The translations under genes were made by a program, and so were the position numbers. Shown piece after piece: positions 19,904-40,822 of a stretch of 56,621 bases of DNA. Position 1 is the stretch's first letter. Each line of letters starts with the position of its first letter. The notes under the pieces were generated by a model, which was not told the DNA's origin, ran no database searches, and saw nothing but the letters and a program-made list of their open reading frames with translations. This stretch comes from a candidate division KSB1 bacterium (GTDB lineage Bacteria; Zhuqueibacterota; JdFR-76; DREG01): contig JADFJB010000012.1 in NCBI GenBank assembly GCA_022566355.1, positions 1-56,621 on the forward strand, given 5' to 3'.

Positions 19904-21280
19904 ATGGAAAACCAAAATAATATCTCATACACTCAGCTGCAGGCATTATACGAAATCAGCAAGAAAATCAATTCACAGATGTACTTAGATAAATTGCTTG
20001 ATGAAATAATGGATTTAGCTGTTGAGCTGGTAAATGCTGAAAAAGGATTGATAATGTTACGAGATCCTCAATCGGGAAATCTTTCCATGAAAGTAGCCAG
20101 GGCTATAGACAAACAAACCATCCAGGACATTATCGCGATAAGCAAATCAATCGCTGACAAGGTAGCTAGCTCTGGCCAATCAATGCTTTTAAAAGCTGCC
20201 TCAGAAGAAGACGCAAAAGGAGTTAGTTTAAGTTTCTATCGTCTTAAACTTAGGTCTGTCATATGTGTGCCACTCAAAGTTAAAGATCAAATAATTGGGG
20301 TAATTTATCTTGACACCACAAAGTCAAACAATTATTTTAAGAATGAAGATATATTTTTTCTGGAGGCGTTTTCTAACTTAGCAGCAATCTCGATTGAAAA
20401 TGCTAAAAATTACACCGAACTTCAGGATCTAAGTGCTAATCTGGAAAATTTGGTAGAAGAGCGTTCACAAGAGCTGAAAAAAAAACACGTTGAATTAAAA
20501 AAAACCTACGAAAATCTTCAAAAAGCACAGGTCAAATTGGTGCGCTCAGAAAAGATGGCATCGCTAGGAATGTTGGTTGCCGGTGTAGCACATGAAATTA
20601 ATACACCACTGGGTTCAATATATAGCAACACAGATACTTTTCTTAGAACCATGAACAAGCTGGAGCAGAGTCTTACCGAATCTCTTGATGTTCCTAGTAA
20701 TTTCGATTTATCTGAGTTTTTAAAGTCGATAGAACTGGCTAAAAAATTAACAGATGTAAACAAAGTCGCTACTGAAAGAATCATACAGGTTGTAAAAGGG
20801 TTGCGTAGTTTCGCACGGCTTGATGAGGAGGAATTCAAAACTATAGATATTCACGAAGGTTTGGAAAGCACTCTGGATTTAATTCGGCACCTTCAGCAGG
20901 ATAAAATCGAAATCATCAAGGATTATGGAGAAATTCCTGAGCTTCGATGCAGGGTTAGACAGTTAAACCAAGTGTTTATGAGTCTTCTGGTAAATGCGTG
21001 CCAGGCTATTTCTGGAAAAGGAAAGATTCGTATCCAAACGTTTCTCAAAGGAGAAAGTATTGTTATACAAATCAGTGACTCCGGAGTTGGTATTTCACCT
21101 GAAAATCTAGAAAAAATATTTGATCCCGGGTTCACAACTAAAGGAGTTGGAATTGGTATAGGCTTAGGGCTTTCGATATCCTATGAAATAATTGAAGATC
21201 ATAGTGGAACTATAGAAGTGATGAGCAAAATAGGAGAAGGAAGCACATTTACCATAAAATTACCCGTAAAATTCAACTAA
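19904..21280 (+). CDS. GAF-domain sensor histidine kinase, cytoplasmic
   Basis: 458 residues without transmembrane segments. GAF domain (about 15-165), a long coiled coil (about 170-220, NLENLVEERSQELKKK), a dimerisation domain with H-box GVAHEINTPLGS (phospho-His near residue 227), and an HATPase domain with N-box (NQVFMSLLVNACQA), G1 (DSGVGIS) and G2 (GIGIGLGLS). The H-box and coiled coil resemble the family of kinases that pair with separate response regulators; none is adjacent. The GAF domain is of the same general type as in the sigma54 activator at 7969. It lies directly upstream of the dehydrogenase genes, whose promoter module it shares. Confidence 0.9.
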   Translation: MENQNNISYTQLQALYEISKKINSQMYLDKLLDEIMDLAVELVNAEKGLIMLRDPQSGNLSMKVARAIDKQTIQDIIAISKSIADKVASSGQSMLLKAASEEDAKGVSLSFYRLKLRSVICVPLKVKDQIIGVIYLDTTKSNNYFKNEDIFFLEAFSNLAAISIENAKNYTELQDLSANLENLVEERSQELKKKHVELKKTYENLQKAQVKLVRSEKMASLGMLVAGVAHEINTPLGSIYSNTDTFLRTMNKLEQSLTESLDVPSNFDLSEFLKSIELAKKLTDVNKVATERIIQVVKGLRSFARLDEEEFKTIDIHEGLESTLDLIRHLQQDKIEIIKDYGEIPELRCRVRQLNQVFMSLLVNACQAISGKGKIRIQTFLKGESIVIQISDSGVGISPENLEKIFDPGFTTKGVGIGIGLGLSISYEIIEDHSGTIEVMSKIGEGSTFTIKLPVKFN

Positions 21281-21282
21281 AT

Positions 21283-21375
21283 AAATTTTTCCCTTGACAT
21301 TTACCTCCTAGTTGTGCAATATATTTGACATCGCGGATTCTACTTTTTTTTGCTTCACTGGAAGGAGTTTCATTT
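21283..21375 (+). promoter_or_regulatory. Leader/promoter module, copy 3 of 3
   Basis: TTGACA at 21294-21299, TATATTTG at 21320-21327 and GGAAGGAG before the ATG at 21376. This is the only copy placed in front of an intact Tat-signal gene and is probably the parent of the remnant copy at 1686. The match to copy 2 begins around the shared CAACTAAATAAATTTTTCCC. Confidence 0.55.
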
Positions 21376-21969
21376 ATGAGCCTCAAAAAACAATCAAGAC
21401 GGGAATTTCTCAGCACTTCCGGCTCAATGATTGGCAGTTCCATGCTTGCACTGGAAATGTCGGCAATTCTTTCTGCAGCGAATTTCGCCTGCCAGGCCCA
21501 TAAAGCAGGAGCAGGCTTCGAAGTATTGACAGAATTTGAAGCGAAAGAACTTGAGGCAATCGCTGCCCAGATATTTCCCACGGATGACACCCCGGGCGCC
21601 AAAGAAGCGGGTGTTATTTATTTCATCGATCGCGCTTTAAACACGTTCAGATCGGGTGATAAAAAAAGGGTTCGCAGCGGCTTGGCTCGATTCGAATCTA
21701 AAGTTCGGGAAAAACAGGGCGCTGATGATTTTTCCGCGCTTACTTCTGAGCAACAAATTGCAGCGCTGCAATCGATTGAAGAATCGGACTTCTTCGAAAC
21801 TATTCGTTATTTGACCATCGCCGGACTTTTTTCGAATCCATCCTACGGCGGCAATCGCGATATGCTGGGTTGGAAGCATATCGGGTTTGACCACAAGCCG
21901 GTCTGGCAAGCGCCATTCGGTTATTATGATGAACAATATATGAAGGATCAAGATGGCAATGCAAGCTGA
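21376..21969 (+). CDS. Gluconate 2-dehydrogenase subunit 3 family protein
   Basis: 197 residues. The start is ATG 21376, with GGAAGGAG upstream. The N-terminal Tat signal has SRREFL and a hydrophobic stretch; a lipobox-like Cys follows (ANFACQA). The mature part matches the subunit-3 pattern: ELEAIAAQIFPTDDTPGAKEAG near the start and GGNRDMLGWKHIGFDHKPVW towards the end. This small subunit accompanies membrane-bound GMC-type dehydrogenases and is needed for their export and assembly. The next gene, encoding the flavoprotein, overlaps by 17 bp. Confidence 0.9.
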   Translation: MSLKKQSRREFLSTSGSMIGSSMLALEMSAILSAANFACQAHKAGAGFEVLTEFEAKELEAIAAQIFPTDDTPGAKEAGVIYFIDRALNTFRSGDKKRVRSGLARFESKVREKQGADDFSALTSEQQIAALQSIEESDFFETIRYLTIAGLFSNPSYGGNRDMLGWKHIGFDHKPVWQAPFGYYDEQYMKDQDGNAS

Positions 21970-23608
21970 GCAGCCAAAATTTACGACTCGCACACCGGTG
22001 GATTTCGTCGTGATTGGTTCCGGTGCGGCTGGCGGCGTCATGGCAAAGGAGCTTTCTACTGCCGGGTTCGACGTCGTCGTATTGGAACAAGGGCCATACG
22101 TGACGCCGGACAAATTCATGCATGACGAAATCGGGAATTCCACCAAACGCGGACTCGGATTCACGGCTGATGGCGATCCACAGTCCTTCCGTGTTAGCGA
22201 AGATGAAAAAGCTGAAGAAAGACGAAATTTATATTATTTGCGAGTTGTTGGCGGAACAAGCATTCATTTTACCGCCAATTACTGGCGTTTTCATGAAGTG
22301 GATTTTATCGAACGGAGTTTGCTCGGCCCAATAGCGGGCACAGGATTCGCCGACTGGCCAATCACTTATGAAGAGCTTGAACCGTATTATACTAAAGTTG
22401 ATTGGGAAGTTGGCGTGTCCGGGGCTGTAGGTCCGACAGATTCATTCCGTTCGAGATCCTACCCGATGCCGCCATTACCCGTGAAGTCCTCGGGTGTGTT
22501 ATTTGAGAAGGGTGCAAAAAAAATGGGATGGCATGCTTTTCCGGCGCCCATGGCGATTTTATCGGAGCCGTTTAATGGCCGTCCTCCTTGCCAACACTGC
22601 GGCTTCTGTATGTCATTTGGCTGTGAATTCAGTGCGAAATCCTCCAGTCTTGCCGCCATGATTCCCGTGGCGGAAGCAAGTGGACATTGTGAAATCAGAC
22701 CCGAGAGCACTGTGGCCCGATTAGAAACCGATGATTCGGGGCGCGTTAGGGATGTTGTTTATTTTGATCGAAATGGCACTGAACAGGCTCAGCGTGCGAA
22801 AGCCGTGGTGCTGTGTGCAAACGGGGCGGAAACCCCGCGTCTCTTGTTGATGTCGGAATCGAATCGCTTTCCTGATGGATTGGCAAACTCAAGCGGCAAG
22901 GTTGGTAAATATCTTATGGGCAACGGCCAGGTACATGTTTACGGATATTATGAACACCGGTTGAATGATTACAAGAGTGTCCAGGTCACACGTATCCTTC
23001 ACGATTTTTATAATTCGGATCCATCACGTGGATTCTACGGCGGTGGCGGTATGGATGCTCGCTTCCAGTTTAACCCAGTTTCATTTGCACTGCGCGGATT
23101 GCCGCCGGATGCACCCCGTTGGGGTTCGGAATATAAGAAGATGGTAGGGGAATACTTCAATCGTGTAGTTGATGTGAACGGCCATACGACTGTGCTGCCC
23201 CAGGAGTCGAATAACATCTCCCTGGATCCGAATCTGAAAGACAAATATGGACGTCCTGGCATGCGAACAACTTATAAAGATCATCCCGATGATATGGCTG
23301 TTCAGGAGTTTTTCCGCGAGCGCTGTGAAGAACTGGTGGAAGCGTCGGGTGCGTTGCGTATGTGGAATCGGTCAATTAACACGACAACCGGACATGCTCA
23401 CTTGCTTGGAACTTGCAGGATGGGCAATGATCCGGGCGAATCAGTAATCGACAAATTCCACAGAACCCACGACGTGCCCAATCTTTTTATCAGCGATGGC
23501 AGCAGCTTTGTTTCGTCAGGTCGCGGGCAACCAACCATGACGATCCAGGCGCTGGCGTTTCGGGCTGCCGACCACATTATTCAGTTTGCGAAAAAAGGTG
23601 AAATATAA
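21953..23608 (+). CDS. GMC-family oxidoreductase, gluconate-dehydrogenase-like flavoprotein
   Basis: 551 residues. The ADP-binding loop is VIGSGAAGGVMAKEL (about 20-34). A Cys-rich motif, CQHCGFCMSFGCEF near residue 210, is typical of the gluconate/fructose dehydrogenase branch. The catalytic His region is GHAHLLGTCRMG. The second active-site segment, normally NPTLTI, reads GQPTMTIQAL here, so the usual Asn is replaced by Gln. The protein lacks its own signal and should be carried out by the Tat signal of the partner subunit encoded upstream. It oxidises a sugar, sugar acid or alcohol and passes electrons to a cytochrome; a small cytochrome c gene follows about 780 bp downstream. Confidence 0.9.
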   Translation: MAMQAEQPKFTTRTPVDFVVIGSGAAGGVMAKELSTAGFDVVVLEQGPYVTPDKFMHDEIGNSTKRGLGFTADGDPQSFRVSEDEKAEERRNLYYLRVVGGTSIHFTANYWRFHEVDFIERSLLGPIAGTGFADWPITYEELEPYYTKVDWEVGVSGAVGPTDSFRSRSYPMPPLPVKSSGVLFEKGAKKMGWHAFPAPMAILSEPFNGRPPCQHCGFCMSFGCEFSAKSSSLAAMIPVAEASGHCEIRPESTVARLETDDSGRVRDVVYFDRNGTEQAQRAKAVVLCANGAETPRLLLMSESNRFPDGLANSSGKVGKYLMGNGQVHVYGYYEHRLNDYKSVQVTRILHDFYNSDPSRGFYGGGGMDARFQFNPVSFALRGLPPDAPRWGSEYKKMVGEYFNRVVDVNGHTTVLPQESNNISLDPNLKDKYGRPGMRTTYKDHPDDMAVQEFFRERCEELVEASGALRMWNRSINTTTGHAHLLGTCRMGNDPGESVIDKFHRTHDVPNLFISDGSSFVSSGRGQPTMTIQALAFRAADHIIQFAKKGEI

Positions 23609-23627
23609 TTATGGTTGAAAAACATAT

Positions 23628-23743
23628 AACCACAGAGACACAGAGACACAGAGACACAAAGTTAATAAGTAACAAAGTAACAAAGGCACAAAGTAACAAA
23701 GTAACAAAGTAACAAAGGTATAAAGGTATAAAGGTATAAAGAA
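23628..23743. repeat. Octamer tandem repeats, second locus
   Basis: After the GMC stop codon: CACAGAGA-type units, then a mixture of GTAACAAA, GGCACAAA and GGTATAAA units. Together they are a degenerate version of the array at 9504-9623. Both arrays lie just after a stop codon. Confidence 0.8.
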
Positions 23744-23828
23744 ATCTGTTATTTATGAAAAATTAGTAGAATGACAATTCGACCAAATAAATATTAATTT
23801 ATAAATCCCAAAAACAAGGAGATCATCG

Positions 23829-24290
23829 ATGGTTAAAAAATTGACATTTTTGGTTTTATCCCTGATCCTTATTGGATTTCAGCAACTGCAAGCTCAAGAG
23901 CACTCAGAACACGGCGTAGAATACATCAATCCGAGAAGCTCTTTTAGTGAGGTTGTGCGGGTTGGCAATATGCTTTATTTAACCGGTAAACTCGGTTTCA
24001 AAGATCGCCAATTGGCTCCTGGTGGCATCAAAGAAGAGACTCGCCAGACACTGGAGAATATCAAAGCTGTTTTGGAGAAAAATGGTTCATCGATGGATCA
24101 TGTTGTAAAAGTAACGGTTTTTCTTGCAGACATTAAAGAATGGGCGGATATGAATGAAGTATACAAGACATTTTTTCCAAAAAATCGCCCGGCACGCAGT
24201 GCTGTGGGAGTAAGCGGTTTGGCGCGGGATGCCCGGGTGGAGATCGAGTGTATTGCCGTAGTTGCGCAAGAATCACATCATGAGAATTGA
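23829..24290 (+). CDS. Exported RidA/YjgF/UK114 family protein
   Basis: 153 residues. A signal peptide (about 1-22, ending LQAQ) precedes a RidA domain: FSEVVRVGNMLYLTGKLG, ETRQTLENIKAVLEKNGSS, VTVFLADIKEWADMNEVY, and NRPARSAVGVSGLARDARVEIE, which carries the conserved Arg that binds imine or enamine carboxylates. Cytoplasmic RidA hydrolyses reactive enamines from PLP enzymes; an exported version within a sugar/alcohol oxidation cluster may act on oxidised products or have another role. AAGGAG precedes the start. Confidence 0.85.
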   Translation: MVKKLTFLVLSLILIGFQQLQAQEHSEHGVEYINPRSSFSEVVRVGNMLYLTGKLGFKDRQLAPGGIKEETRQTLENIKAVLEKNGSSMDHVVKVTVFLADIKEWADMNEVYKTFFPKNRPARSAVGVSGLARDARVEIECIAVVAQESHHEN

Positions 24291-24383
24291 TTTTAAATTT
24301 GTGACAAGTGAAAATTTGCCATTGACTAAATTCAGTAAATAACAATTTGCAATCATCAAACCTTGAACGGAGTCTATGGGTAG

Positions 24384-24803
24384 ATGTGTAGAGAATCTAA
24401 GACTGCCATTATCATCTTGTTCATTACACTTTCTGTCCGGACTGGTTCGGCTCAGGAAAGTGATTCCACAATCGTTGCAATCTATACTGACGACCAGGCA
24501 GAGCGCGGCGCCCTGGTTTATGAAAAATCCTGCGGTATATGTCATCAGCCGGAACAATTCAAAGGTGCTGTTTTTATGGATGCCTGGGGTGGCCAACCAG
24601 TGGACGCTTTATACACTTTAATCCGAACAACCATGCCTTATGACAATCCCAGCAGGTTATCCAGGCGGCAATATGCAGAAATCCTGGCTTACATCTTTAA
24701 GCTGAATGGCATGCCTGCCGGAGAAACCAAGCTACCAAGCAACATTCGAAAATTAAAAAAAATCACAATTGAACCCTTACCCGAAAAGAGGAGCAAGCAA
24801 TGA
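24384..24803 (+). CDS. Small c-type cytochrome
   Basis: 139 residues with a signal peptide (ending GSAQ) and a single haem-binding CxxCH (SCGICHQ near residue 50). A likely distal Met is in TTMPYDNPSRLSRRQYAEIL, a segment typical of small cytochromes paired with quinoprotein or sorbosone-type dehydrogenases. Its stop overlaps the start of the PQQ dehydrogenase gene (ATGA), so the two should act together, the cytochrome taking electrons from PQQ. The start is not certain because the ATG lacks a strong ribosome binding site. Confidence 0.8.
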   Translation: MCRESKTAIIILFITLSVRTGSAQESDSTIVAIYTDDQAERGALVYEKSCGICHQPEQFKGAVFMDAWGGQPVDALYTLIRTTMPYDNPSRLSRRQYAEILAYIFKLNGMPAGETKLPSNIRKLKKITIEPLPEKRSKQ

Positions 24804-26767
24804 AAGCAAACACCAAAAAGTTCCGGATGAGTATCTTGATGATATTCAGTCTGATTCTGTTTTTGTTGGGTTTTACTATTCCCGGATTCGGGCAGAATGG
24901 AGATAAAAAAGGAGATTGGGCTTATTGGGGTAGCGACGCTGGCAGTAGCCGTTACTCTTCACTTGACCAGATCAATGGCGAAAATGCGGAAGACCTTGAA
25001 GTTGCCTGGCGCTGGAATTCAGCTAATTTCGGCCCGCAACCGGAATATTATTATCGTACCACGCCCATTGCTATCGATGGAATATTATATGCGGTAGCCG
25101 GTGAACGAAGGGCTGTTGTGGCCATCGATGGTGCTACCGGCGAGACAATCTGGATTTGGCGCATGAAACAAACCCCTCGCTGGGAGGTGTCGCCGCGGCG
25201 ATTCTCCGGCCGTGGTGTAGCCTATGCTGAGGTGGAGGGAGAGGGTCGTATATTTGTTATCACTCCGGGATTTTTCCTGGCTTCACTCGATGCCAGGACC
25301 GGTCGTCCCGACAAAGGATTTGGCAAAAATGGTATCGTAGATCTCATGGTCGGACTTGGCTATGATGTGGATCCTGAAACCGGCATCGATCCGAAATATG
25401 GATTGATCACAGCGGGTTCTCCTCCCATTGTAGTGAATGGTGTTATTGTGGTTAATAACGCACATGGACGTGGTTATTATCCGAGCCAAAAAGAAAATAT
25501 TCCCGGCCATATTCGCGGTTACGATGTGCAAACCGGCAAACAAAAATGGATCTTTCATGTAATCCCAAAACCAGGTGAATTTGGCCACGATACCTGGGAG
25601 GGTGATTCCTGGACTTACACCGGCAATGTTTCATCCTGGCCGCCGCTCTCTGCCGATCCTGAATTAGGAATGGTTTATATTCCAACAGATACGCCCACAG
25701 GAGATTATTACGGCGGTCACCGCCACGGTGACAATCTCTATGGCACAAGTGTTATTGCCCTGGATGTAGCGACTGGTAAGCGCGTGTGGCATCAACAGCT
25801 GGTTAAACATGATATCTGGAATTATGACAATCCTACAGCGCCAAACCTGGTGGACATCACAGTCGATGGTCGACGCATCAAAGCGATTGTACAAGCGACC
25901 AAGCAAGGATGGGCTTATGTCTTTGACCGTGAAACAGGTGAGCCGGTTTGGCCGATGGAAGAACGAAAAGTTGCAAAATCCGATGTGCCGGGTGAGAAAA
26001 CATCATCGACTCAACGATTCCCGACCTGGCCGAAACCATATGAACTGCAAGGGATCACCATCGATGATCTAATCGATTTCACACCGGAACTCCGGGCTGA
26101 AGCGATAGAAATAGTCTCCAAACATCGAATGGGTCCGATTTTCACTCCGCCATCCCTGGCCAAAGATGCAAGCGGAACCCTGGGAACTTTGGTCGTACCA
26201 GGTGCAAATGGTGGAACGAACATTTCCGGTGGAGCAGTGGTAGATCCGGAAACAGGCATTCTTTACGTAGCAACAGTTAGAGGCCACAGCAATATTTCCA
26301 TGGTGCACGATCCCAAGAAATCGAATATGAGATATATTTCTCTTGGTCCTGGCGGAATTCGCGGACCTAGAGGATTGCCGCTTCTAAAACCACCCTACGG
26401 ACGCATAGTTGCCATAGACTTGAATACGGGTGAACACATTTGGGAAATTACAAATGGCGATACGCCGGCTGCGGTGAAAAACCATAAGGCTTTACAGGGA
26501 ATCAAAATTCCCAGAACAGGCAAGAACCGGCATGCAAATGTTTTAGTGACTAAAACAGCGCTATTTGCTGGTGAAGGACGCGGAGGAGATCCATGGTTTC
26601 GGGTGATTAATAAAAAGACCGGTAAAATTCTAACTGAGATCGAGCTGCCCGCAAGTACAAATGCAGCCCCAATGACCTACATGGCAAATGGCAAGCAGTA
26701 CATTGTTGTGGCTATAGCCGGTCCTGATTTTCCAGCTGAACTTTTTGCCCTGGCACTGGTTGAGTAG
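24800..26767 (+). CDS. PQQ-dependent (quinoprotein) dehydrogenase
   Basis: 655 residues; signal peptide ending GFGQ, then an eight-bladed propeller with repeated tryptophan-docking-like segments, starting DWAYWGSDAGSSRYSSLDQI and including IAIDGILYAVAGERRAVVAI, VWHQQLVKHDIWNYDNPTAP and YVFDRETGEPVWPMEE. The segment KHDIWNYDNPTAP is characteristic of the family's active-site region. It has no N-terminal membrane domain and no fused cytochrome; the cytochrome is encoded by the overlapping gene upstream. Together with the GMC and FAD enzymes it suggests periplasmic oxidation of sugars or alcohols feeding the respiratory chain. PQQ synthesis genes are not in the window. Confidence 0.9.
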   Translation: MKANTKKFRMSILMIFSLILFLLGFTIPGFGQNGDKKGDWAYWGSDAGSSRYSSLDQINGENAEDLEVAWRWNSANFGPQPEYYYRTTPIAIDGILYAVAGERRAVVAIDGATGETIWIWRMKQTPRWEVSPRRFSGRGVAYAEVEGEGRIFVITPGFFLASLDARTGRPDKGFGKNGIVDLMVGLGYDVDPETGIDPKYGLITAGSPPIVVNGVIVVNNAHGRGYYPSQKENIPGHIRGYDVQTGKQKWIFHVIPKPGEFGHDTWEGDSWTYTGNVSSWPPLSADPELGMVYIPTDTPTGDYYGGHRHGDNLYGTSVIALDVATGKRVWHQQLVKHDIWNYDNPTAPNLVDITVDGRRIKAIVQATKQGWAYVFDRETGEPVWPMEERKVAKSDVPGEKTSSTQRFPTWPKPYELQGITIDDLIDFTPELRAEAIEIVSKHRMGPIFTPPSLAKDASGTLGTLVVPGANGGTNISGGAVVDPETGILYVATVRGHSNISMVHDPKKSNMRYISLGPGGIRGPRGLPLLKPPYGRIVAIDLNTGEHIWEITNGDTPAAVKNHKALQGIKIPRTGKNRHANVLVTKTALFAGEGRGGDPWFRVINKKTGKILTEIELPASTNAAPMTYMANGKQYIVVAIAGPDFPAELFALALVE

Positions 26768-27150
26768 CAATTGCTGGTTATTTTTGGAAGCAAGGTTGAA
26801 AGAATAATAAGGAAATAAGTGACGTAATTTTCAAAGACCAAATTACAAAAGCTCAAATAAATAACAATGAACAATCCTATAAATCCAAACAAAATTTATC
26901 AAAATGAAGTCAACGTCTTACTTTAAATGGAATTTAGAAAAGCACTAAAAATAAAGTTTGGTTATTAGTCTTTTGAATTTGGAATTTATTTGTGATTTGT
27001 TTTTTGAGTTTTTGGGATTTGCTAGCACACACTTCAAAAAAGCAATACCCCTTTCTGCCTTATAATGGGATTGCTATTTGGAAATTGGAATTTGATCATT
27101 ATTTGTGACTTGATGCTTGTATTTTGTAATTTAAACAAATGGAGTACATT
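26768..27150. other. Intergenic region, nothing coding seen
   Basis: About 380 bp, AT-rich, with runs such as GGAATTTATTTGTGATTTG and a weak inverted pair AGCAATACCC/GGGATTGCT around 27042-27076. The end contains the GGAG ribosome binding site of the next gene at 27141-27144. Confidence 0.4.
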
Positions 27151-28278
27151 ATGAAAAAATATGGAATTATCATTGTCAGCTTCATTATTATTTGTACAAT
27201 AGCCACAACTGCTTGTGAACAAGGGAGTTCGGGTGATGCTTATGTTTCGCAAAAACCTACGGCATTTGTGGTCGATCCATTCTGGCCCAAGCCCTTGCCG
27301 AACAATTGGATTCTAGGCCAGGTATCCGGTGTCGCAGTCGATGCAAAGGATCATGTTTGGATTGTGCACCGGCCATTAACCATTTCAACACAGGAAGGCG
27401 GCGCTGCCCAGGATCCACCAATTTCAGAATGTTGTGTACCCGCTCCATCGGTAATCGAATTCGATCCGGAAGGAAATCTTGTTCAAGCATGGGGAGGACC
27501 GGATTCGGGCCAGCAGTGGCCAGCGAGTGAACATGGTATCTTCGTTGACCACCAGGGAAATGTATGGATTGGCAGCAATGGTCGCAATGACCAGGTTGTC
27601 CTCAAGTTTTCTCCGGATGGGAAAAAGCTGCTTCAACTTGGTACCTGGGATGAATCGAAAGGCAGCAACGACACAGAATATCTTGGCCGAACCGCTGATA
27701 TTGCCGTGGACCCCAAGACGAACGAAGTTTACCTAGCGGATGGCTATGGAAATCGGCGGATCATCGTGTTTGATGCGGAAACCGGCAAATATAAACGGCA
27801 CTGGGGCGCTTATGGTGAAATACCCAATGATGATGAATTACCTGCATACGATTCTGCTACAGATCCGATAAAATCGTTCCGCAGTCCCATGCATGCAGTC
27901 CGTTTATCGAATGACGGTCTCGTTTATACGGCTGATCGGGTGAATAACCGAATTCAAGTATTTAACCAGGATGGGACTTTTGTGAAGGAGGGTTTTATTG
28001 CCACCCAAACATTGTCCATGGGATCGGTGTGGGACATTGAATTGTCCAGGGATGAAGCCCAGACATACATGTATATTCCGGATGGAACGAATAATAAGGT
28101 TTGGATTTTGAATCGGGAGAGTCTTGAAGTCGTTGCATCTTTCGGCCGGGGTGGACGAAATGCGGGACAGTTCGGCTGGGTTCATAATGCGGCGATGGAC
28201 TCGAAAGGGAATCTCTATACTACCGAGGTTGAGACTGGTAAAAGAGTGCAGAAATTCAGGCCTGTTGCCGGCTCTTAG
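27151..28278 (+). CDS. NHL-repeat beta-propeller lipoprotein
   Basis: 375 residues from ATG 27151 (GGAG 6 bases upstream; an in-frame ATG 12 bases earlier is less likely). Signal peptide with lipobox TTACEQ (Cys near 22). About six NHL-type blades follow, for example SGVAVDAKDHVWIVHRP, HGIFVDHQGNVWIGSNG, ADIAVDPKTNEVYLADGYG, HAVRLSNDGLVYTADRVNN and HNAAMDSKGNLYTTEVE. Such proteins (peptidyl-alpha-hydroxyglycine-lyase-like propellers) often sit in sugar-oxidation clusters as binding or lyase subunits. A role alongside the PQQ dehydrogenase is inferred from position only. Confidence 0.8.
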   Translation: MKKYGIIIVSFIIICTIATTACEQGSSGDAYVSQKPTAFVVDPFWPKPLPNNWILGQVSGVAVDAKDHVWIVHRPLTISTQEGGAAQDPPISECCVPAPSVIEFDPEGNLVQAWGGPDSGQQWPASEHGIFVDHQGNVWIGSNGRNDQVVLKFSPDGKKLLQLGTWDESKGSNDTEYLGRTADIAVDPKTNEVYLADGYGNRRIIVFDAETGKYKRHWGAYGEIPNDDELPAYDSATDPIKSFRSPMHAVRLSNDGLVYTADRVNNRIQVFNQDGTFVKEGFIATQTLSMGSVWDIELSRDEAQTYMYIPDGTNNKVWILNRESLEVVASFGRGGRNAGQFGWVHNAAMDSKGNLYTTEVETGKRVQKFRPVAGS

Positions 28279-31600: not shown

Positions 31601-31621
31601 AGCAATAAAAAATTTATTGCT
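31601..31621 (-). terminator. Hairpin at the end of the selenium operon
   Basis: AGCAATAAA/TTTATTGCT, a perfect 9-bp stem with a 3-nt loop that overlaps the last bases of the permease gene. It is AT-rich with no long T-run on the minus strand, so it is a weak terminator candidate. Confidence 0.3.
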
Positions 31622-33110
31622 AATAAGAAGTTTCCAACTTCGCAGATATTTTCAACCGCTTGCGTACCAGTTGCGATATTGTATCAATGCCTATATTTAA
31701 AACGGCTGTGATTAGAATTAATAGAATCGCTTTGTCCATTTTGTCATCGGCGATTGCGCTATCGATTAGAAATCCTAACGTGAAAATACCCAGGATACCC
31801 AAAATAGCCGATTCCCGCATCATCACCTCCCAACGATAGAATAGAAAGGCGAGAAACTGGCCATAAACCCGGGGAAGTATTTCATATGTATAGCGGTTCA
31901 TTCTTTTTTTGGATGCATCGATGCGTAATTTGACCCGGTCTGCAGTTTTAACCATTAAGTGAGATAAAATTCCACCGTTGTGGAAAGTAATTGCTAAAAT
32001 CGCAGGTAACATGGACGGTCCCATCAATTGCACCAAAACATAGGCCATGATGTATTCCGGTGTAGTTCTAATAATAATCAAAAGATACCGTACGATTCTA
32101 CAAATTGCAGGCATACAAAAATGCTGGGAGCCGATGGGAAATCCAATTAGCGTAAACAAGCCGGTACCTACCAGAACAATTTGAGTGAGTATTACTGTGT
32201 GCCAAATTCCGGGAATTGCTTCACTTTTTAAAATATCCCATGTCCACTGCCAGATCTGTTGAATGGGAAATGCAATCGCATAACTACCGTCTAAAAAACC
32301 CTCCCTTCTCATGGGCCATGGCAAAATATCATAGGTGAAAAAGCGTGTAACATTGTCCCAGGAGAATGATGTCTCAGTAGATATCAATAAGAACGCTGCG
32401 ATCACGTAAATTGGCACCAACCTTGCTTTCAACCAGTATTTCAGCGAGGCGATTAAAAGGTAGAAAATGATCAATATTGCAGCAGCTTCGGAATACAGGC
32501 TTTCTCGAAAGGCGGTCTCCAAATGGAATCCTAATGTGGGCAATCCAATAAATCCCAACACCGCGCTGGAGCGCAAGGCGCACTCAAATCGATAAGAAGT
32601 GTAGTGTTTTACATCTTCAATAATAACCGGGAAAATACCGTAAAAGAATTTTCCAAGTGGTCCGGTGTGTGTTGGTAATGCCTTCAATGGCTTTTGATCT
32701 GCTTCCTGGAGTATTTCGGAGTAGACCTTAGCAAAAATTCCGGTGTAAGGAATGGCAATAGCCAATACCCCACAAACCGGATTCAATCCAACGATCGGGA
32801 GTAAAATGAATGCCCAAAAAATTTCATGGATGGCACGAATAAAGGCACAAAATAGTCGAACGATATGGTATTTAAAGAAGAAAGCCAGGAAAGTGCCGAA
32901 CAGGACGCTAAGAGATATCCCGCAAAGTGCAAATATCAATGTGTTCAGGAAAGCAGTGCGAAATTCGTAAAGAACCCAAAAATCGGGTGTGATTATTCCT
33001 GATAATAACCTTTGAATTTCTCCCCACGGATCTAAGGTTGAAATTTCTATATCAGATAATAAAAGACATAAGAAGCCCACCCCCAAAAAATATAGACTGG
33101 TTCTTAGCAA
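31620..33110 (-). CDS. Fused double PhnE-like ABC transporter permease (probable selenium oxyanion uptake)
   Basis: 496 residues holding two consecutive permease domains of the phosphonate (PhnE) type. Each has a variant of the EAA loop: ALRSSAVLGFIGLPTLGF near 180 and MMRESAILGILGIFTLGFLID near 435. About 12 transmembrane helices in total. Fused PhnE-PhnE permeases occur in the PhnCDE-like systems encoded next to selD and annotated as putative selenate/selenite transporters. It overlaps the ATPase gene by 7 bp. Phosphonate or phosphite transport is the alternative, but no phosphonate-degradation gene is present, while selD and sen genes lie in the same operon. Confidence 0.8.
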   Translation of the reverse strand: MLRTSLYFLGVGFLCLLLSDIEISTLDPWGEIQRLLSGIITPDFWVLYEFRTAFLNTLIFALCGISLSVLFGTFLAFFFKYHIVRLFCAFIRAIHEIFWAFILLPIVGLNPVCGVLAIAIPYTGIFAKVYSEILQEADQKPLKALPTHTGPLGKFFYGIFPVIIEDVKHYTSYRFECALRSSAVLGFIGLPTLGFHLETAFRESLYSEAAAILIIFYLLIASLKYWLKARLVPIYVIAAFLLISTETSFSWDNVTRFFTYDILPWPMRREGFLDGSYAIAFPIQQIWQWTWDILKSEAIPGIWHTVILTQIVLVGTGLFTLIGFPIGSQHFCMPAICRIVRYLLIIIRTTPEYIMAYVLVQLMGPSMLPAILAITFHNGGILSHLMVKTADRVKLRIDASKKRMNRYTYEILPRVYGQFLAFLFYRWEVMMRESAILGILGIFTLGFLIDSAIADDKMDKAILLILITAVLNIGIDTISQLVRKRLKISAKLETSY

Positions 33111-33757
33111 GGATGAAATAGTTTTTCGAGAAGTGAATCGTTGATATCTTTACGTGGCAGATCAAAAAGTACTTTACCCAATCGGAGCCCTATAATCCGA
33201 CTAAAATATTGCAGAGCCAATTCAACAGAATGCAGTGAAAGAACAACCGTTTTCGTGGCTTCGGTAAGAATGCCCACAATAGTACCAGCCTGGTGTGGAT
33301 CGATAGAAGAAACAGGTTCATCGCCAAGCAAAACATCCCCTCCCCTGAATAACGCCCGTGCCACCGCTACTCTTTGCTGCTGACCTCCTGATAGTGCCCC
33401 TACTTTATTGAACTTTTTTTCTTCCAATTGTAATCGTTTTAAAACCAGGTTTATTTGCTCCAATTCATTTTTCTGTGGTTTAATAAGATTGAGCAAGTTA
33501 TAAGCTGTGGTATATCGATCCAAACGACCTGCATAGACATTATTAAATACCGAAAGCTGTGGAACCAGTGCGTAATCCTGGTGAATGAAAGCTGCATTTT
33601 CACGTTTAAGTTCATATAAAGTCCGAAGTAATGTTGTTTTACCAGCGCCACTGGGACCGATCAAAGCCACCTTTTCTCCCTCATTGATTTCAAGCGAGAT
33701 GTTATGAAGCGCCTTGGTGTCTTCGTATTTGATTGAGACGTTTTTTAGTTTGAACAT
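33104..33757 (-). CDS. PhnC-like ABC transporter ATP-binding protein
   Basis: 217 residues. Walker A GPSGAGKTT (about 34-42), Q-loop FIHQDYALVPQ, signature GALSGGQQQR (about 122-131), Walker B DVLLGDEP and switch His LSLHSVEL. The start of the permease gene lies inside its 3' end. It powers the double permease, with the periplasmic binding protein encoded just upstream. Confidence 0.85.
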   Translation of the reverse strand: MFKLKNVSIKYEDTKALHNISLEINEGEKVALIGPSGAGKTTLLRTLYELKRENAAFIHQDYALVPQLSVFNNVYAGRLDRYTTAYNLLNLIKPQKNELEQINLVLKRLQLEEKKFNKVGALSGGQQQRVAVARALFRGGDVLLGDEPVSSIDPHQAGTIVGILTEATKTVVLSLHSVELALQYFSRIIGLRLGKVLFDLPRKDINDSLLEKLFHPC

Positions 33758-33857
33758 TTCCGAATCTAATTATTGTTATGGATGATTCATAAAAGATTTT
33801 TTGACAGGATTAACGGGATAAACCATGATATGAATTCTCCTGACTGTTTAAAAAATA

Positions 33858-34727
33858 TCAATTGTCAATTAAACCTATTTTGATTCCTGTTTCGAGAATG
33901 GAATTGTACATTGAATTATCTGCTGAGATAAACCGCTTACGAGGAAACGAATCCAATAGTTCGCGATCACTCATGTTAAGTAAAGCGTCTTTTACTTTTT
34001 GGATAAATCCTTCCCCGAATGTTTTTTCCAAATCCGGCCGGATGGACCAATTGTAATCCGGGTAGGTTGGAGTTTTCCAGATGATTGTCACTTTGTTTGT
34101 ATCAATCTTTCCAGCCATTAATTCATTTTCCCAAACTTTGTAATTCAATACACCGATCTCGTAACTGCCGGATTGCACTAAAGCGATGGTTTTGGAATGA
34201 TCGCCGCTAAAACCCACTCTTTTGAAAATATCTCCAGGGGCTTTTTCAAAATGATCGCGAATGAAATACTCCGGCATCAAGCGTCCGGAGGTGGATCCTT
34301 TAGATCCAAAAGTAAAGGTCTTGCCCTTGATGCTTGCTGGGAAATCTGTTTTCTCTTTGATTCCTGTTTTGGCATTGGCAATAAAATAGGAATAAAACTG
34401 TACGTCTTCTTCTCCCTGCGCAATGGCTTGCGCGCCTCGGATAGCCCTGCGCGCTCTTACTCCGGAGAGCCCACCAAACCAGGCCAATTGGACCTCGTTA
34501 TTTTTAAACGCAGCAACGGATGCAGCATATGACTTTACAGGAATATATTTCACTTCCACATTTAGAACTTTTGAGAGGTATACAGCTACTTTGTTGAATC
34601 GCTGCTGCAATCGATGTGTGTTTTCATCAGGAATTGCTGTAAAACGAAAAGTCTGCGGGAGAACCGAACTTGCTGATATCAAATAGAAAACAGCAATTAA
34701 AATAAATTTATTCATCCACTTACTCAC
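33858..34727 (-). CDS. PhnD-like periplasmic binding protein, putative selenate/selenite ABC importer
   Basis: 289 residues; signal peptide ending VLPQ, then a type II periplasmic binding fold of the PhnD family: FTAIPDENTHRLQQRFNKVA, QLAWFGGLSGVRARRAIRGA, FTFGSKGSTSGRLMPEYFI, GFSGDHSKTIALVQSGSYEIG. The ExTxR-like (PDENTHRL) start and the SxSTSGRL segment are typical of the subfamily found beside selD and annotated as putative selenate transporter component. The operon here supports that role: selD and senB lie upstream in the same direction. It follows the porin gene by 28 bp. Confidence 0.8.
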   Translation of the reverse strand: MSKWMNKFILIAVFYLISASSVLPQTFRFTAIPDENTHRLQQRFNKVAVYLSKVLNVEVKYIPVKSYAASVAAFKNNEVQLAWFGGLSGVRARRAIRGAQAIAQGEEDVQFYSYFIANAKTGIKEKTDFPASIKGKTFTFGSKGSTSGRLMPEYFIRDHFEKAPGDIFKRVGFSGDHSKTIALVQSGSYEIGVLNYKVWENELMAGKIDTNKVTIIWKTPTYPDYNWSIRPDLEKTFGEGFIQKVKDALLNMSDRELLDSFPRKRFISADNSMYNSILETGIKIGLIDN

Positions 34728-34755: not shown

Positions 34756-35772
34756 CTACCAGGTATAATAAAAAGTCAAACGTGGGATAAAGTCGGTTGA
34801 AGGGGCTTCACCTTCATCCACGTCATAGTTTACTAGTTCAAAATTAGGCATAATATGGACATTCTCTTCTACTGAAAAATCAAGACCAGCTATAATAAGC
34901 TTCGATTTTGCCTGGTCGGAAAAAGGAAGATAAGAAAGACTTTCGCCAGAAGGGTTAGGATCAAAGCCTCTATCTACTCTAGCAAAACCCCATACTTTCT
35001 CTCCAAGCTTTGCAGCTGTAAAAACAGAACCCCATCTTATTTTTTGACTGTCAAGGCCATCCCCCTGTTTGCGTGTTTGATGTAAAAATTGGGCTCCGAT
35101 TCTAAATGTAGATGTTTTATAGGCGATGAATCCTTGCTTTGTATACCGATCCTTCCCATCCGGCATGCCATTCCAGTCACTATATCCCTCGACAAACAAG
35201 TTCTTGACAAGTTCGATAGCAAACGCCAACATGATTTTTTTCTCTTTATTGGTTTCAGAACTTGTACCATTTCCGTTAGCGAGCATAGCATGGTATTGAA
35301 ACCGTTTATTCTGATCCAGGCTGCCTTTGAAGGCGATGCCAGTGTCCCTTGAAGATCCAAATTTATGTAAATCGGCAAGCGTTTTCTCAACCGAGCGATA
35401 TCCCCATACGCTTTCTAAGAAAGCAAAAGTTGGCGATGTTGAAATTCCAACATAAATATCGTGTTGACCCAGGTTCCATTTAAGATATGCATCTTTCACA
35501 AAAGGATTCAATTTTGATTTAGTAGAAAAGTCACCTGGGCTATTCATTTCAAAGCGTAACCGAGTTGAGAAAGCATCACTCAATTGATTATCGTAAGTAA
35601 AGTAAATACGTCGAAACCAGAATCCATTTTGATTCTCATAATTTGAATTGTGGTTTGCGGCTACCCAATACGCATCTGCGTAAACCAATCCGGAAAATTT
35701 GTGATTCTGAGCGAATAATGAGCTTGTTCCCAGCAATAATAACAATATAGCAGGTATAAATTTTCGCGTCAC
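34756..35772 (-). CDS. Outer membrane porin-like protein
   Basis: 338 residues; signal peptide ending LFAQ (about 1-21). Alternating barrel strands follow (FSGLVYADAYWVAANHN; FRRIYFTYDNQLSDAFS; TRLRFEMNSPGDF; VENVHIMPNFELVNYDV), ending in a C-terminal tryptophan (LTFYYTW). The strands resemble phosphate-selective-porin (OprO/P) type barrels. Located between selD and the binding protein in the same operon, it probably lets selenium oxyanions cross the outer membrane. The ligand assignment is by context only. Confidence 0.7.
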   Translation of the reverse strand: MTRKFIPAILLLLLGTSSLFAQNHKFSGLVYADAYWVAANHNSNYENQNGFWFRRIYFTYDNQLSDAFSTRLRFEMNSPGDFSTKSKLNPFVKDAYLKWNLGQHDIYVGISTSPTFAFLESVWGYRSVEKTLADLHKFGSSRDTGIAFKGSLDQNKRFQYHAMLANGNGTSSETNKEKKIMLAFAIELVKNLFVEGYSDWNGMPDGKDRYTKQGFIAYKTSTFRIGAQFLHQTRKQGDGLDSQKIRWGSVFTAAKLGEKVWGFARVDRGFDPNPSGESLSYLPFSDQAKSKLIIAGLDFSVEENVHIMPNFELVNYDVDEGEAPSTDFIPRLTFYYTW

Positions 35773-35836: not shown

Positions 35837-36895
35837 TTAATAAAAAATTAGATTCGTTGAATTTTGTAAATCGGTTACAGTTCCAATCGTTTTTGCTTGC
35901 TTGACGCCGGCATTATGTAATTCATGCAACAAGCCTTCACCCTGCGCCTTGGGAACTGCTACCAAAAGCCCACCGCTTGTCTGCGGATCAAATACGATCT
36001 CCTCATGCCAGCCTGGAAGATCTCTCTGAAAACGAATATGATCGCCAACCATTTGACGGTTATAAAGGTTAACGCCGGTGCTCATCCCTTTTTCATACAT
36101 TGCCAATGCTTCATTCATCACGGGGATTTGATCCATGGAGATTTTCAGGGTAACGTTAGAGCCGTCTGCCATTTCAAAACAATGGCCAGCCAGCCCGAAG
36201 CCGGTAATGTCTGTCGCTGCGTGGATTTCGAAATTAGCCATAACTTCTGCCGGTGCTTTGTTTAAGGTCGTTATAATTTCAATACATTCGTTCAAGGCAT
36301 CTGTGGACACCCAGTTTTTTAGATTTGCGTTGAAAATGACCCCGCTGCCAATTGGCTTTGTCAATATCAACACATCTCCCGGTTTCGCGCCAACATTTCT
36401 CCATATTTTTTTAGGATGAACGATCCCTGTTACAGATAATCCAAATTTCGGTTCTTCATCTTCAGTAGTATGGCCGCCGGCTAATACTGCTCCTGCTTCT
36501 GAGATTTTACTCAGGGCGCCTGCCACAATCCCGTGAAGTACTTCCGGTTCTAATTTATTCGATGGAAAACCCACCAGGTTCAAACAGGTTATGGGCCGGC
36601 CTCCCATTGCGTACACATCACTCAAAGAATTGGCAGCCGCTATTTGACCGTACAGGAATGGATCATCCACCGGGGGAGTAATAAAATCTGCAGTAGTGAC
36701 TAGTGCTGTATCATCGTTTAATCGATAGACGCCGGCATCATCACTGGTTTCAAACCCAACCAATAGATTTGGATCCTGATCTTTTGAAAATTTTTGCAAC
36801 AACTCACCCAACCCGACCGGGCTGATTTTAGCCGCTCAACCGCAGGTTTTTGCCAGGCTGGTCAGAGTATGTTTTTGTATTGCATCACTTGACAT
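35837..36895 (-). CDS. selD: Selenophosphate synthetase, selenocysteine-containing (SelD/SenC)
   Basis: The conventional open frame starts at 36811, but the same frame continues upstream through one TGA (36836-36838) to ATG 36895, giving 352 residues. The added N-terminus contains TSLAKTCG-U-AAKI, with the UGA exactly where SelD enzymes have the catalytic Cys or Sec (CG[C/U]xxK). The Lys after it is conserved. A hairpin 11 nt after the UGA fits a bacterial SECIS. The rest is typical AIR-synthase-fold SelD: VTTADFITPPVDDPFLYGQI, NSLSDVYAMGG, AGGHTTEDEEP, TDITGFGLAGH, VFDPQTSGGLL. It makes selenophosphate from selenide and ATP for selenocysteine and, here, for selenosugar. SenC is the name for the SelD homologue in selenoneine clusters. 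It lies 24 bp after senB. Confidence 0.92.
36809..36838 (-). promoter_or_regulatory. UGA Sec codon and bacterial SECIS element of selD
   Basis: Reading on the minus strand: UGA (36838-36836), 11-nt spacer (36835-36825), stem CAGCCC (36824-36819), loop GGUC (36818-36815), stem GGGUUG (36814-36809). All six pairs form, one of them G-U. The 11-nt spacing and a short apical loop with GGU are those of the minimal E. coli fdhF SECIS recognised by SelB. Confidence 0.8.
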
Positions 36896-36919
36896 CTATT
36901 TGTCTCCTGATTGATAAAA

Positions 36920-37885
36920 TCAATTCTGGTTTTCTGAGTTCCATTCTTTTAACAATTTTTTTAATGATAATTTTTCAACTGACGGATCAAATTTATCGGC
37001 CAATAAATTGATTTTTTGTTTGAGAGCCGCCATAAATTGAGGATCCGTTTCCGTTTTATAGAGGAGTTTTGAAAGAGCTGAAGTATCGCCAACTTCGAAA
37101 AAGCCGGGATAATCTTCACCCAATAATCCAAGGGTAGCTGATATTCGTGAAGCCAATATCGGAACACCGGCCACAACCGCTTCCGAAAGGACGCTGGGTC
37201 CACCTTCCATTAAAGAAGATAATACTACAACCCGGCTTCTTGCTAAAATAATGAGTGTTTGCCACCGGGGTTTTTTGCCGAGCCAAAAATAGCGACTATT
37301 ATTTGCCATTTCTTGCAATGCAATACTTCTCATTTCAGGTTCCAGAACATCGCCAACATGAAGTACTCGAATTTGTGATTCATCAGGAAGATTTCGAACG
37401 GCATAAGCTGTAATGAAAGGATCCTTTACTTTGCGGAGGTGGCCAATCACGCTAACGTCAAATGTTCTTTTTCGTTTTTGGATATTTCCATTGAGCTTTT
37501 CAGCAGATTGAACAATGACTCGAACTTTGCGGTGAAATTCAACGGGTAATTCCCGGATACCAAGAGGCTGTAACAATATTAGGCGGTCAGCATATTCCAA
37601 AGATTTCCTAACATTAGGGTTTGTGTGAATATCTTTGTGAATGTCTGTCCCAGTCAATAGGACCACAATTGGTTTGCCTGGACAATTTTTGTGGAACTCC
37701 TCAATTGCCGGAAAGGTGTGACTTGCATGAAGAGCGATCATTAAATCGCAATTGTTTTTGCGAAAGTTTTGTGAAATAGTCACTTTATGCCCTAATTGTC
37801 TCAAATATCGTGTCCACCTTTGAGCGGTAATGCGGTTTCCTTTCAGAGAATTTTTAGGGGTATGTGTAATGACTTCTATTTGCAT
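36920..37885 (-). CDS. senB: Selenosugar synthase SenB (glycosyltransferase-like)
   Basis: 321 residues, GT4-like glycosyltransferase fold. The N-terminus IEVITHTPKNSLKGNRITAQ followed by RWTRYLRQLGHKV, then VVLLTGTDIHKDI, ADRLILLQPLGIRELP, SVIGHLRKVKDPF, YFWLGKKPRWQT, and LMEGGPSVLSEAVVAGVPIL with GLLGEDYPGFFEVGD, all match the SenB family. SenB joins selenophosphate to a UDP-sugar (UDP-GlcNAc) to make a selenosugar, the selenium donor for selenoneine. It is the first gene of the minus-strand selenium operon and lies next to the selenophosphate synthetase gene that supplies its substrate. Confidence 0.9.
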   Translation of the reverse strand: MQIEVITHTPKNSLKGNRITAQRWTRYLRQLGHKVTISQNFRKNNCDLMIALHASHTFPAIEEFHKNCPGKPIVVLLTGTDIHKDIHTNPNVRKSLEYADRLILLQPLGIRELPVEFHRKVRVIVQSAEKLNGNIQKRKRTFDVSVIGHLRKVKDPFITAYAVRNLPDESQIRVLHVGDVLEPEMRSIALQEMANNSRYFWLGKKPRWQTLIILARSRVVVLSSLMEGGPSVLSEAVVAGVPILASRISATLGLLGEDYPGFFEVGDTSALSKLLYKTETDPQFMAALKQKINLLADKFDPSVEKLSLKKLLKEWNSENQN

Positions 37886-38051: not shown

Positions 38052-39257
38052 CGTAACGTACTTATTCTAAGTATTAGTCAAGCATTTGCAATGGCTGGCG
38101 GCCCCATGATTACGTTATTGGGTGGTGTTGTAGGTGCCAAACTGTCACGTGATCCCATGTTGTCTACTCTGCCTGTTTCCATTATGATTGTTGGTATTGC
38201 AATATTCACAATTCCTGCAGCTCATGTGATGAAGTTTATAGGTCGTCGGCGTGGATTCATTGCATCTGCACTGACTTCAGCAGTTGCTTCTTTATTTGCT
38301 GCTTACGCCATTTGGACAGAGAGTTTTATCATATTCTGTTTTACCATGTTATTCATAGGAGCAAATCTCGCATTTGTCCAACAATACCGTTTTGCTGCTG
38401 CTGAGAGTGTAAAGCCGAATCAATCAAGTAAAGCAATTTCGTTTGTCTTAATTGGCTCAATAGGAGCAGCCTACTTAGGGCCTGAAATTGCTAGTCGCGC
38501 GAAAGATTTGTTGGACTTTGGTGTCTATAGCGGATCCTTTTTGGGACTTGCAATAATGTCACTTTTAGCGGCTATTTTATTATATTTTTATGACGATGTT
38601 GAAGTTCAAGATGAAGGGATATTGGCTAAAGAACGCCCTTTGCAAGAGATAATAAAACAACCACTCTTCATCTTAGCTGTATTAGCTGGCGTCGTTGCCT
38701 ATGGTATGATGAGTTTTATCATGACAGCAACTCCGGTCAGTATGCATGTATTTGAAGGATATTCATTAGAAGATACTGCCCGGACTATTCAAATCCATGT
38801 GATAGCGATGTATCTTCCATCCCTTTTTACGGGTACAATCATATCACGATTAGGTGTTTTAAAAGTAATGACTGCAGGCAGTGTATTTTTGAGTGCCAGT
38901 ATTTCTATCGCTTTATTGGGCCACCAATTACAATATTATTGGGGTGCATTATTTTTATTAGGGATTGGTTGGAATTTCTTATTCGTAAGTGGGACAACTC
39001 TATTAACTCGAACTTACCATTCAACAGAACGATTTAATGCCCAGGCAATTAATGATTTTTCAATTTTTGCTATTTCTGCATTAGCATCTTTGCTGGCAGG
39101 AGTGATCATACATCATGTCGGTTGGAATTTTATTAATTTACTTTGCATACCCCTGTTAGTTCTTATGTTCTTGTTCATATTTGCAGTTCGTAAAATCTTG
39201 TACAAAACAAAATCACCAATATCCGGATATGAGGCTACAAGGAATCCATTATTTTAG
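38049..39257 (+). CDS. Major facilitator superfamily transporter, probable AUU start
   Basis: About 402 residues and 12 transmembrane helices. From the first ATG the protein would lack most of helix 1. Extending upstream to ATT 38049 adds RNVLILSISQAFAMAGGPM, the usual beginning of this MFS type, directly after a stop codon and 8 nt after AAGGAG. The inter-helix signature after TM2 is MKFIGRRRGFI (G-R-R-x-G). The substrate is unknown. It is inserted between senB and senA on the opposite strand, shares the upstream region with senB, and ends 17 bp from senA's stop, so a role in moving selenoneine or a selenium/hercynine-related compound is possible. ATG to ATT mutation with reduced expression is the alternative reading. 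Confidence 0.8.
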   Translation: MRNVLILSISQAFAMAGGPMITLLGGVVGAKLSRDPMLSTLPVSIMIVGIAIFTIPAAHVMKFIGRRRGFIASALTSAVASLFAAYAIWTESFIIFCFTMLFIGANLAFVQQYRFAAAESVKPNQSSKAISFVLIGSIGAAYLGPEIASRAKDLLDFGVYSGSFLGLAIMSLLAAILLYFYDDVEVQDEGILAKERPLQEIIKQPLFILAVLAGVVAYGMMSFIMTATPVSMHVFEGYSLEDTARTIQIHVIAMYLPSLFTGTIISRLGVLKVMTAGSVFLSASISIALLGHQLQYYWGALFLLGIGWNFLFVSGTTLLTRTYHSTERFNAQAINDFSIFAISALASLLAGVIIHHVGWNFINLLCIPLLVLMFLFIFAVRKILYKTKSPISGYEATRNPLF

Positions 39258-39274
39258 GATAGTATTGTGAATCA

Positions 39275-40588
39275 CTATTTTGCGCATGTACGAAATCCAG
39301 CAAACACATCATTTCGGTGAGGTAAATAAAAATTGCGATAAGTATTCCGGATAAGACTTGAGCTGGTCGCCCAACATCCGCCACGCAATACTTTGTTGTA
39401 ACCAAACCAAGGGGCAGAATACTCCTTATAAGGCTGATCCACAATATATCCTGGGAAAGGGTAGAATGGGGAGGATGTCCATTCCCAAACGTTTCCGATC
39501 ATCTGCCGACAGCCGAATGCGCTATCGCTATCAGGGAATGCTGCAACATCAACACACCCACCAAACCGATGATCAAGATTTGCATGCTCCCGATTAAGCG
39601 GATTATCACCCCATGGATAAAACCGTTTGTTTTCTGTTATTCTGCCATCATTTGAGACTTCTCCCGATGCAGCTAATTCCCATTCAGCTTCCGTTGGCAA
39701 ACGCCTTCCTGCCCAATTACAATAAGCCTCAGCCTCATACCAATTGACATGGATAACAGGGCAATGATCTTCCAAAAGAATGAAGGGTTCAAAATTTTTA
39801 CGATACCAAAGTTTCCCATCCTGCATATAGTACAGCGGATGTTTAGGTTTGAATTTCTTGAGCCAGATTTTGCCGCCATAGCTCCAATATTGAAGATTTT
39901 CGTACCCTCCTGCTTCTACAAACTCACAAAACTCACTGTTTGTTACTGCGGCTTTAGCAATTTTGAAGGGTTCAATATCAATGGGGTGAGCCCACATTTC
40001 ATTATCAAAGACGAATGGCTGATCTTTTGTCGCACCCAAATGATAAATTCCACCAGGAATTTCCACATCGCCTGGATGTGAACCTGCCTGGATAATATCC
40101 GGATCAATATTTTCCAAGTTAAATTTTGGAGCGGGATAATCCAATGTCTGTCGAGAATAAGTAAAGGATTCGGCGTGCATGTCTTCATGAAAAGCACAGA
40201 GTAAATAAAGATAAGTTTCCCAAGCGCCTGGTTCGTGATTGTCCAATCGAGTTATCATACAGTTTAATACCGTCTCCATATAATCAAAAACAGCAGCGCG
40301 ATCGAGTAATGGTAAATGCCAGCGATCATCGTGGGCGACCAGGAATGAGTCATATAATTCATCACGACCTTCAATCATGGGTTCAGAGTGATCAAGCAGT
40401 CTTAATAAAAACACTTCATGAAAAAAGGCAACATGACCAATCTCCCACAAAAGAGGATTTACGGTTTCGACTTGCTGGTTCATCAACTGATTATCGCTTA
40501 AATCTTCAATTAATTTCAATGATTGTGTACGAGCATTTTTTATGTATTTTATCAATTCTGAAGACTGTAATGTAAAATGTTTTTCCAT
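39275..40588 (-). CDS. senA: Selenoneine synthase SenA (EgtB-like)
   Basis: 437 residues from ATG 40588; a TTG 15 bases upstream is possible. N-terminal DinB-like domain (about 1-165) with PLLWEIGHVAFFHEVFLLRL and the iron-binding FHEDMHAESF (HxxxHxE). C-terminal FGE-sulfatase/EgtB domain (about 180-437): VFDNEMWAHPIDIEPFKIAK, GRRLPTEAEWELAASGE, MIGNVWEWTSSPFYPFPGY, KEYSAPWFGYNKVLRGGCWA and RNFYLPHRNDVFAGFRTCA. The EYSAPWFG and RNFYxPxRxDVxAGFRTCA blocks are those of SenA rather than ergothioneine EgtB, which uses gamma-glutamylcysteine or cysteine. SenA joins the selenosugar to hercynine. No hercynine-forming EgtD gene is in the window. Confidence 0.88.
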   Translation of the reverse strand: MEKHFTLQSSELIKYIKNARTQSLKLIEDLSDNQLMNQQVETVNPLLWEIGHVAFFHEVFLLRLLDHSEPMIEGRDELYDSFLVAHDDRWHLPLLDRAAVFDYMETVLNCMITRLDNHEPGAWETYLYLLCAFHEDMHAESFTYSRQTLDYPAPKFNLENIDPDIIQAGSHPGDVEIPGGIYHLGATKDQPFVFDNEMWAHPIDIEPFKIAKAAVTNSEFCEFVEAGGYENLQYWSYGGKIWLKKFKPKHPLYYMQDGKLWYRKNFEPFILLEDHCPVIHVNWYEAEAYCNWAGRRLPTEAEWELAASGEVSNDGRITENKRFYPWGDNPLNREHANLDHRFGGCVDVAAFPDSDSAFGCRQMIGNVWEWTSSPFYPFPGYIVDQPYKEYSAPWFGYNKVLRGGCWATSSSLIRNTYRNFYLPHRNDVFAGFRTCAK

Positions 40589-40822
40589 AGTTAATAATTC
40601 CAATTTAAAGTAATGGCAAATTAACGCTTTAAAAGTGTATCAATTTGAAACACTGCCTCAATGAAGTTCAAATAATTTTTAAGCAGAACGAAAAAGTAAT
40701 TTTAACACAATGATTAAAATTCCAATAAATATGATAATCAACTATTTAATTATTATATAATTAAACTTATTTTATATTTATCAGAAAATTCAAATTTTTT
40801 TGACAAAATGAATAAAAATTCT

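Follow-up and report, generated by a model that had tools for sequence, protein, structure and literature searches.

Gene content of the locus

The window analyzed here is an entire contig (C12, 56,621 bases) of the draft genome G000, an assembly of 4.62 Mb in 213 contigs with a completeness of 98.5% and a contamination of 0.21%. A selD gene, senB, and senA lie together on its minus strand, and by gene content they constitute a selenoneine cluster (Table 1). A putative selenate ABC transporter (31620-34727) is encoded on the same strand. SelD produces selenophosphate from selenide and ATP. Selenophosphate is used by SelA for the synthesis of selenocysteine (Sec) and by SenB for that of a selenosugar, which SenA turns into selenoneine. 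The senB gene terminates with UGA as an ordinary stop codon, 24 nt before selD.

Table 1. Features of the selD locus, with positions in the window
Feature	Position	Strand	Evidence
ABC transporter permease, PhnE-like, two halves	31620..33110	minus	profile match
ABC transporter ATPase, PhnC-like	33104..33757	minus	profile match
Putative selenate ABC transporter substrate-binding protein	33858..34727	minus	TIGR04553, 369 bits, cut-off 250
Protein with signal-like N-terminus, possibly a porin	34756..35772	minus	without Pfam match
selD, selenide, water dikinase, 352 aa, predicted Sec20 encoded by UGA	35837..36895	minus	TIGR00476, 381 bits
7-bp SECIS-like hairpin with its GGUC loop at positions 36818-36815	36808..36825	minus	folding and covariation
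In-frame UGA at the catalytic Cys/Sec codon	36836..36838	minus	all 32 relatives (>=61% identity) have TGA here
AGGAG ribosome-binding site for ATG 36895	36904..36908	minus	sequence
senB, selenosugar synthase	36920..37885	minus	TIGR04348, 357 bits, cut-off 300
MFS transporter gene between senA and senB, possibly linked to the system	38091..39257	plus	PF07690
senA, selenoneine synthase	39275..40603	minus	NF041186, 463 bits, cut-off 420

In tetranucleotide composition, both the window and the operon agree with other contigs of G000. Mis-binning of the contig was rejected on this agreement, which falls short of proof. Elsewhere in the window, positions 21001-28000 have a GC content of 0.456, compared with about 0.38 over most of the window. 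This stretch, which may have been acquired, carries genes for an apparent GMC-type oxidoreductase and an apparent quinoprotein dehydrogenase.

The selD frame and its in-frame UGA codon

On the minus strand, the selD frame is open from the ATG at 36895-36893 to the stop at 35837 when one UGA is read through. When this UGA was translated as an amino acid, the product matched the SelD profile TIGR00476 over residues 11-317 (381 bits, cut-off 125) as well as the profile NF002098 (340 bits, cut-off 299), and the gene is the sole selD found in G000. The mechanical list of open reading frames picks TTG 36811, the first in-frame start past the UGA and 28 codons downstream of the ATG. Starting there, the protein would lose its catalytic site. 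The AGGAG site precedes ATG 36895, and none precedes the TTG. The original prediction held that the default start drops the catalytic N-terminus and that the frame extends 28 codons to ATG 36895, and the open frame, the ribosome-binding site, and the SelD profile bore this out. The gene is hidden from standard gene calls, as was also claimed, though this is routine among bacterial selenoproteins.

The UGA (TGA at 36838-36836) is located 19 codons after the ATG in the motif TCG-U-AAK. When aligned with solved SelDs (chains of PDB 3u0o and 2yye), residue 20 fell on the active-site Cys and the following Lys was present, confirming the predicted position at exactly the catalytic Cys/Sec site. The codon was TGA throughout the clade of close relatives (32 of 32), whereas only more distant SelDs had a Cys codon, TGC or TGT.

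A SECIS-like hairpin downstream of the UGA

The hairpin UCAGCCC-GGUC-GGGUUGG (36825-36808) begins 10 nt after the UGA, and its loop lies 17 nt after it. The GGUC loop agreed with the original prediction, but the predicted stem of 6 bp at 11 nt is obtained only without the terminal U.G pair; with it, the stem has 7 bp and starts at 10 nt. The 52-nt stretch folded had an energy of -18.4 kcal/mol, giving z = -2.78 relative to dinucleotide shuffles, and only 71-83 of 20,000 synonymous recodings of the 13 downstream codons with local codon usage gave an equally stable fold. No Rfam family matched the selD hairpin.

Among 33 clade sequences, pairing holds in 90.5% of the hairpin cells, and 18 cells are compensatory on both sides. 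Two pairs vary on both sides, namely columns 15/30 (C-G, G-C, or A-U) and columns 18/27 (C-G or U-A). Covariation was 0.281 compared with 0.194 after shuffling, and 0 of 500 shuffles reached as high a value. Because related sequences may exceed shuffles without any structure, the weight lies on the swaps at third positions and on the slide control, in which the covariation peaked at zero slide and dropped once the partner strand was slid. The position just past the UGA, the G-rich apical loop, and the conservation as a structure are those of a bacterial SECIS.

A second gene with an in-frame UGA

Another UGA-containing gene of G000 (L234:2583-3263, contig C53) encodes an AhpC/TSA-type peroxiredoxin-like protein with the motif YRGGW-U-PYC. 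A hairpin 13 nt after its UGA has a perfect stem and GGUC within the loop, and 533 of 20,000 synonymous recodings were as stable, which is weaker evidence than that for the selD fold. A related gene in G013 has a UGA at the same place. Thioredoxin-fold genes with an in-frame TGA were seen in relatives that are Sec-positive, whereas the five Sec-negative genomes tested had none. An all-against-all BLAST of the relatives' loci for further UGA genes was swamped by antisense frames. A redoxin-like frame in G002 (L241) also contains a UGA.

Relatives of the UGA-containing SelD

The G000 SelD and its 32 relatives formed a clade with a support of 100/100, within which the forks were weakly placed. 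Its members come from at least seven phyla, with representatives in Poribacteria, Calditrichota, Thermodesulfobacteriota, Myxococcota, SAR324, Acidobacteriota, Gemmatimonadota, and Pseudomonadota. In G001, which belongs to the same family as G000, SelD lies outside this clade, and this suggests that UGA-SelD has spread horizontally.

In 10 of the 32 relatives, senA and/or senB lie near selD, indicating that the occurrence of a probable Sec-SelD in selenoneine clusters recurs. Two further genomes from the phylum of G000, G056 and G033, keep the senA-senB-selD-transporter arrangement. A Thermoanaerobaculia assembly (JALXFE01) contains two UGA-selDs (L109 and L114), one of them beside senA/senB and the other with tRNA-Sec and selB directly upstream and a putative selenate transporter downstream. 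As a separate observation, many Calditrichota (L020-L023, L026-L033, and others) have an uninterrupted open frame of 730-800 residues, part of which is SelD-like, and in some genomes (e.g., G056 and G044) it co-occurs with a separate UGA-SelD.

Search for Sec machinery in the draft genome

In the 213 contigs of G000, SelA had no match, and SelB had none above the cut-off, the matches being ordinary translation GTPases only. Searches of G000 for tRNA-Sec with the Rfam model, a model built from the phylum, and an anticodon-arm pattern revealed none; the loci inspected held ordinary tRNAs, with the anticodon CCA for Trp. Of about 35 genomes with a UGA-selD in the sample from the phylum, G000 alone had neither SelA nor SelB. 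SelA was found in 15 of the 15 tested genomes bearing this SelD type, in one of them as a contig-edge fragment only. Taken alone, the negative results in G000 would break the inference that the organism makes Sec.

In G001 and G002, selA adjoins selB, so that one assembly gap could take both genes. No member of the G002 cassette (a liaF-like gene, an MFS gene, selA, and selB) had a good match in G000. A synteny test for a clean selA-selB loss was set aside, as the two genomes of the same family have different flanks and a deletion would look the same as a gap. The missing tRNA-Sec was likewise rejected as a sign of loss, since with the anticodon-arm pattern no clear tRNA-Sec was seen in several drafts that have selA and selB (G002, G013, G026, G037, G046, G047, G053, and G056). 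In some other drafts, tRNA-Sec is located near the end of a contig, and this gene may break assemblies.

Considering that G000 has a second UGA gene and that selA occurs in all 15 carriers tested, an assembly gap is likelier than real absence. The distribution of in-frame TGA among thioredoxin-fold genes points the same way. Most likely, selA, selB, and tRNA-Sec are present in the organism and missing from the draft assembly. The original claim that the cell must make Sec therefore softens to likely, with these observations in its favor and the three genes not found in the draft against it. Absence from a complete genome had been named as what would refute the claim; the search found none of the three, in a draft of 213 contigs.

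Interpretation and alternative explanations

We consider that the UGA of the G000 selD is read as Sec and that the gene encodes a Sec-containing selenophosphate synthetase, with insertion and activity deduced from sequence. The probability of this reading is put at roughly 0.86, a judgement and not a formal computation. The clade-wide UGA, the covariation, the second UGA gene, and the presence of selA in all tested carriers give good support to the claim of a selenoprotein gene with a bacterial SECIS. Translation would start at ATG 36895, and SelB with Sec-tRNA would bind the GGUC-loop hairpin so that Sec is inserted at UGA 36838, yielding a catalytic Sec20 with Lys23 downstream. The selenophosphate formed would supply SenB and SenA for selenoneine and SelA for Sec. 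With an E. coli query, SelU had no match in G000, so SelD would serve selenoneine and Sec, its own synthesis needing Sec. It is a reasonable inference that selenoneine synthesis depends on selenium through SelD itself, and regulation by selenium may follow.

The best-surviving alternative is that Sec decoding was truly lost or never present, in which case the UGA would be a stop and selD, acquired with the sen cluster, would be dying or partly expressed. All three machinery genes went undetected at 98.5% completeness, and SelD belongs to another clade than the SelD of G001, a genome from the same family, which is consistent with transfer. However, the hairpin is intact under synonymous constraint, the second UGA gene has a similar hairpin, the selD of the window is the sole copy in the genome, and the composition is native. 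Such a loss with a stranded UGA-selD is unlikely and would be a surprising outcome. It is less probable still that the UGA-selD, acquired with the selenoneine cluster, was kept after the loss of selA, selB, and tRNA-Sec and gives a functional or altered SelD by another decoding route, like the UGA-SPS1 of Hymenoptera.

A SelB-independent decoding of the UGA, through read-through or a reassigned tRNA, into a full-length protein with another residue is very improbable. The undetected machinery would fit this explanation, and Hymenoptera do have a UGA-bearing SPS1 without Sec (PMC4561486). However, senB in the same cluster stops at UGA, only ordinary tRNAs were among the candidates examined (CCA for Trp), and the conserved hairpin would be left unexplained. 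A sequencing error of a Cys codon or a true start at TTG 36811, for which the default start is the sole point in favor, is already contradicted by the comparative data, with TGA in 32 of 32 relatives, a good ribosome-binding site before the ATG and none before the TTG, and a catalytic site that the TTG start would cost.

Comparison with known systems

SelD is the second largest prokaryotic selenoprotein family (PMC13188914), and Sec occurred in 19% of the SelDs detected in a set of 223 genomes (PMC4561486). The G000 selD joins this large known family of Sec-SelDs, and the find is sound and largely expected. It resembles the Sec-SelD of many bacteria in the position of the UGA codon, the SECIS just downstream, and the full SelD signature, and differs in its location with senA/senB and a putative selenate transporter and in machinery that was not found in the draft. 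The selenoneine cluster of Variovorax paradoxus is senA-senB-senC(selD) (PMC11448449). In G000, SenA and SenB above curated cut-offs also occur together with SelD, whereas senA and senB have an opposite-strand MFS gene between them, the cluster also includes a putative selenate ABC transporter, and SelD is the UGA form, the codon being stated here for G000 only. In orphan SelD genomes, SelD is present and the known Sec genes are apparently absent (PMC5029168), as in G000. Unlike these, G000 has an adjacent use in selenoneine synthesis, a UGA in selD, and a second UGA gene, and for these reasons its SelD is probably not an orphan.

Searches of the open-access literature (open-licence papers only) turned up no description of a Sec-SelD within a sen cluster, and the combination of the two across several phyla appears unreported there. 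If the proposed reading is true, selenoneine synthesis in at least a part of bacterial diversity (Calditrichota, Poribacteria, Acidobacteriota, and Lambdaproteobacteria) rests on an enzyme whose own synthesis requires selenium and Sec decoding, which would tie two uses of selenium together and limit the recipients able to use a transferred sen cluster. Because a default start choice leaves out the first 28 codons of SelDs of this kind, the annotation of sen clusters that contain a Sec-SelD is probably wrong.

A separate case was seen in Poribacteria, where a senB (L093, 9100-10047) has an in-frame TGA at L093:9529-9531 with a hairpin shortly after it. This site is Cys in all eight other SenBs compared and Ser in the SenB of the window. 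The TGA, known from a single sequence, may be either a sequencing error or decay, or the mark of a candidate Sec-containing SenB.
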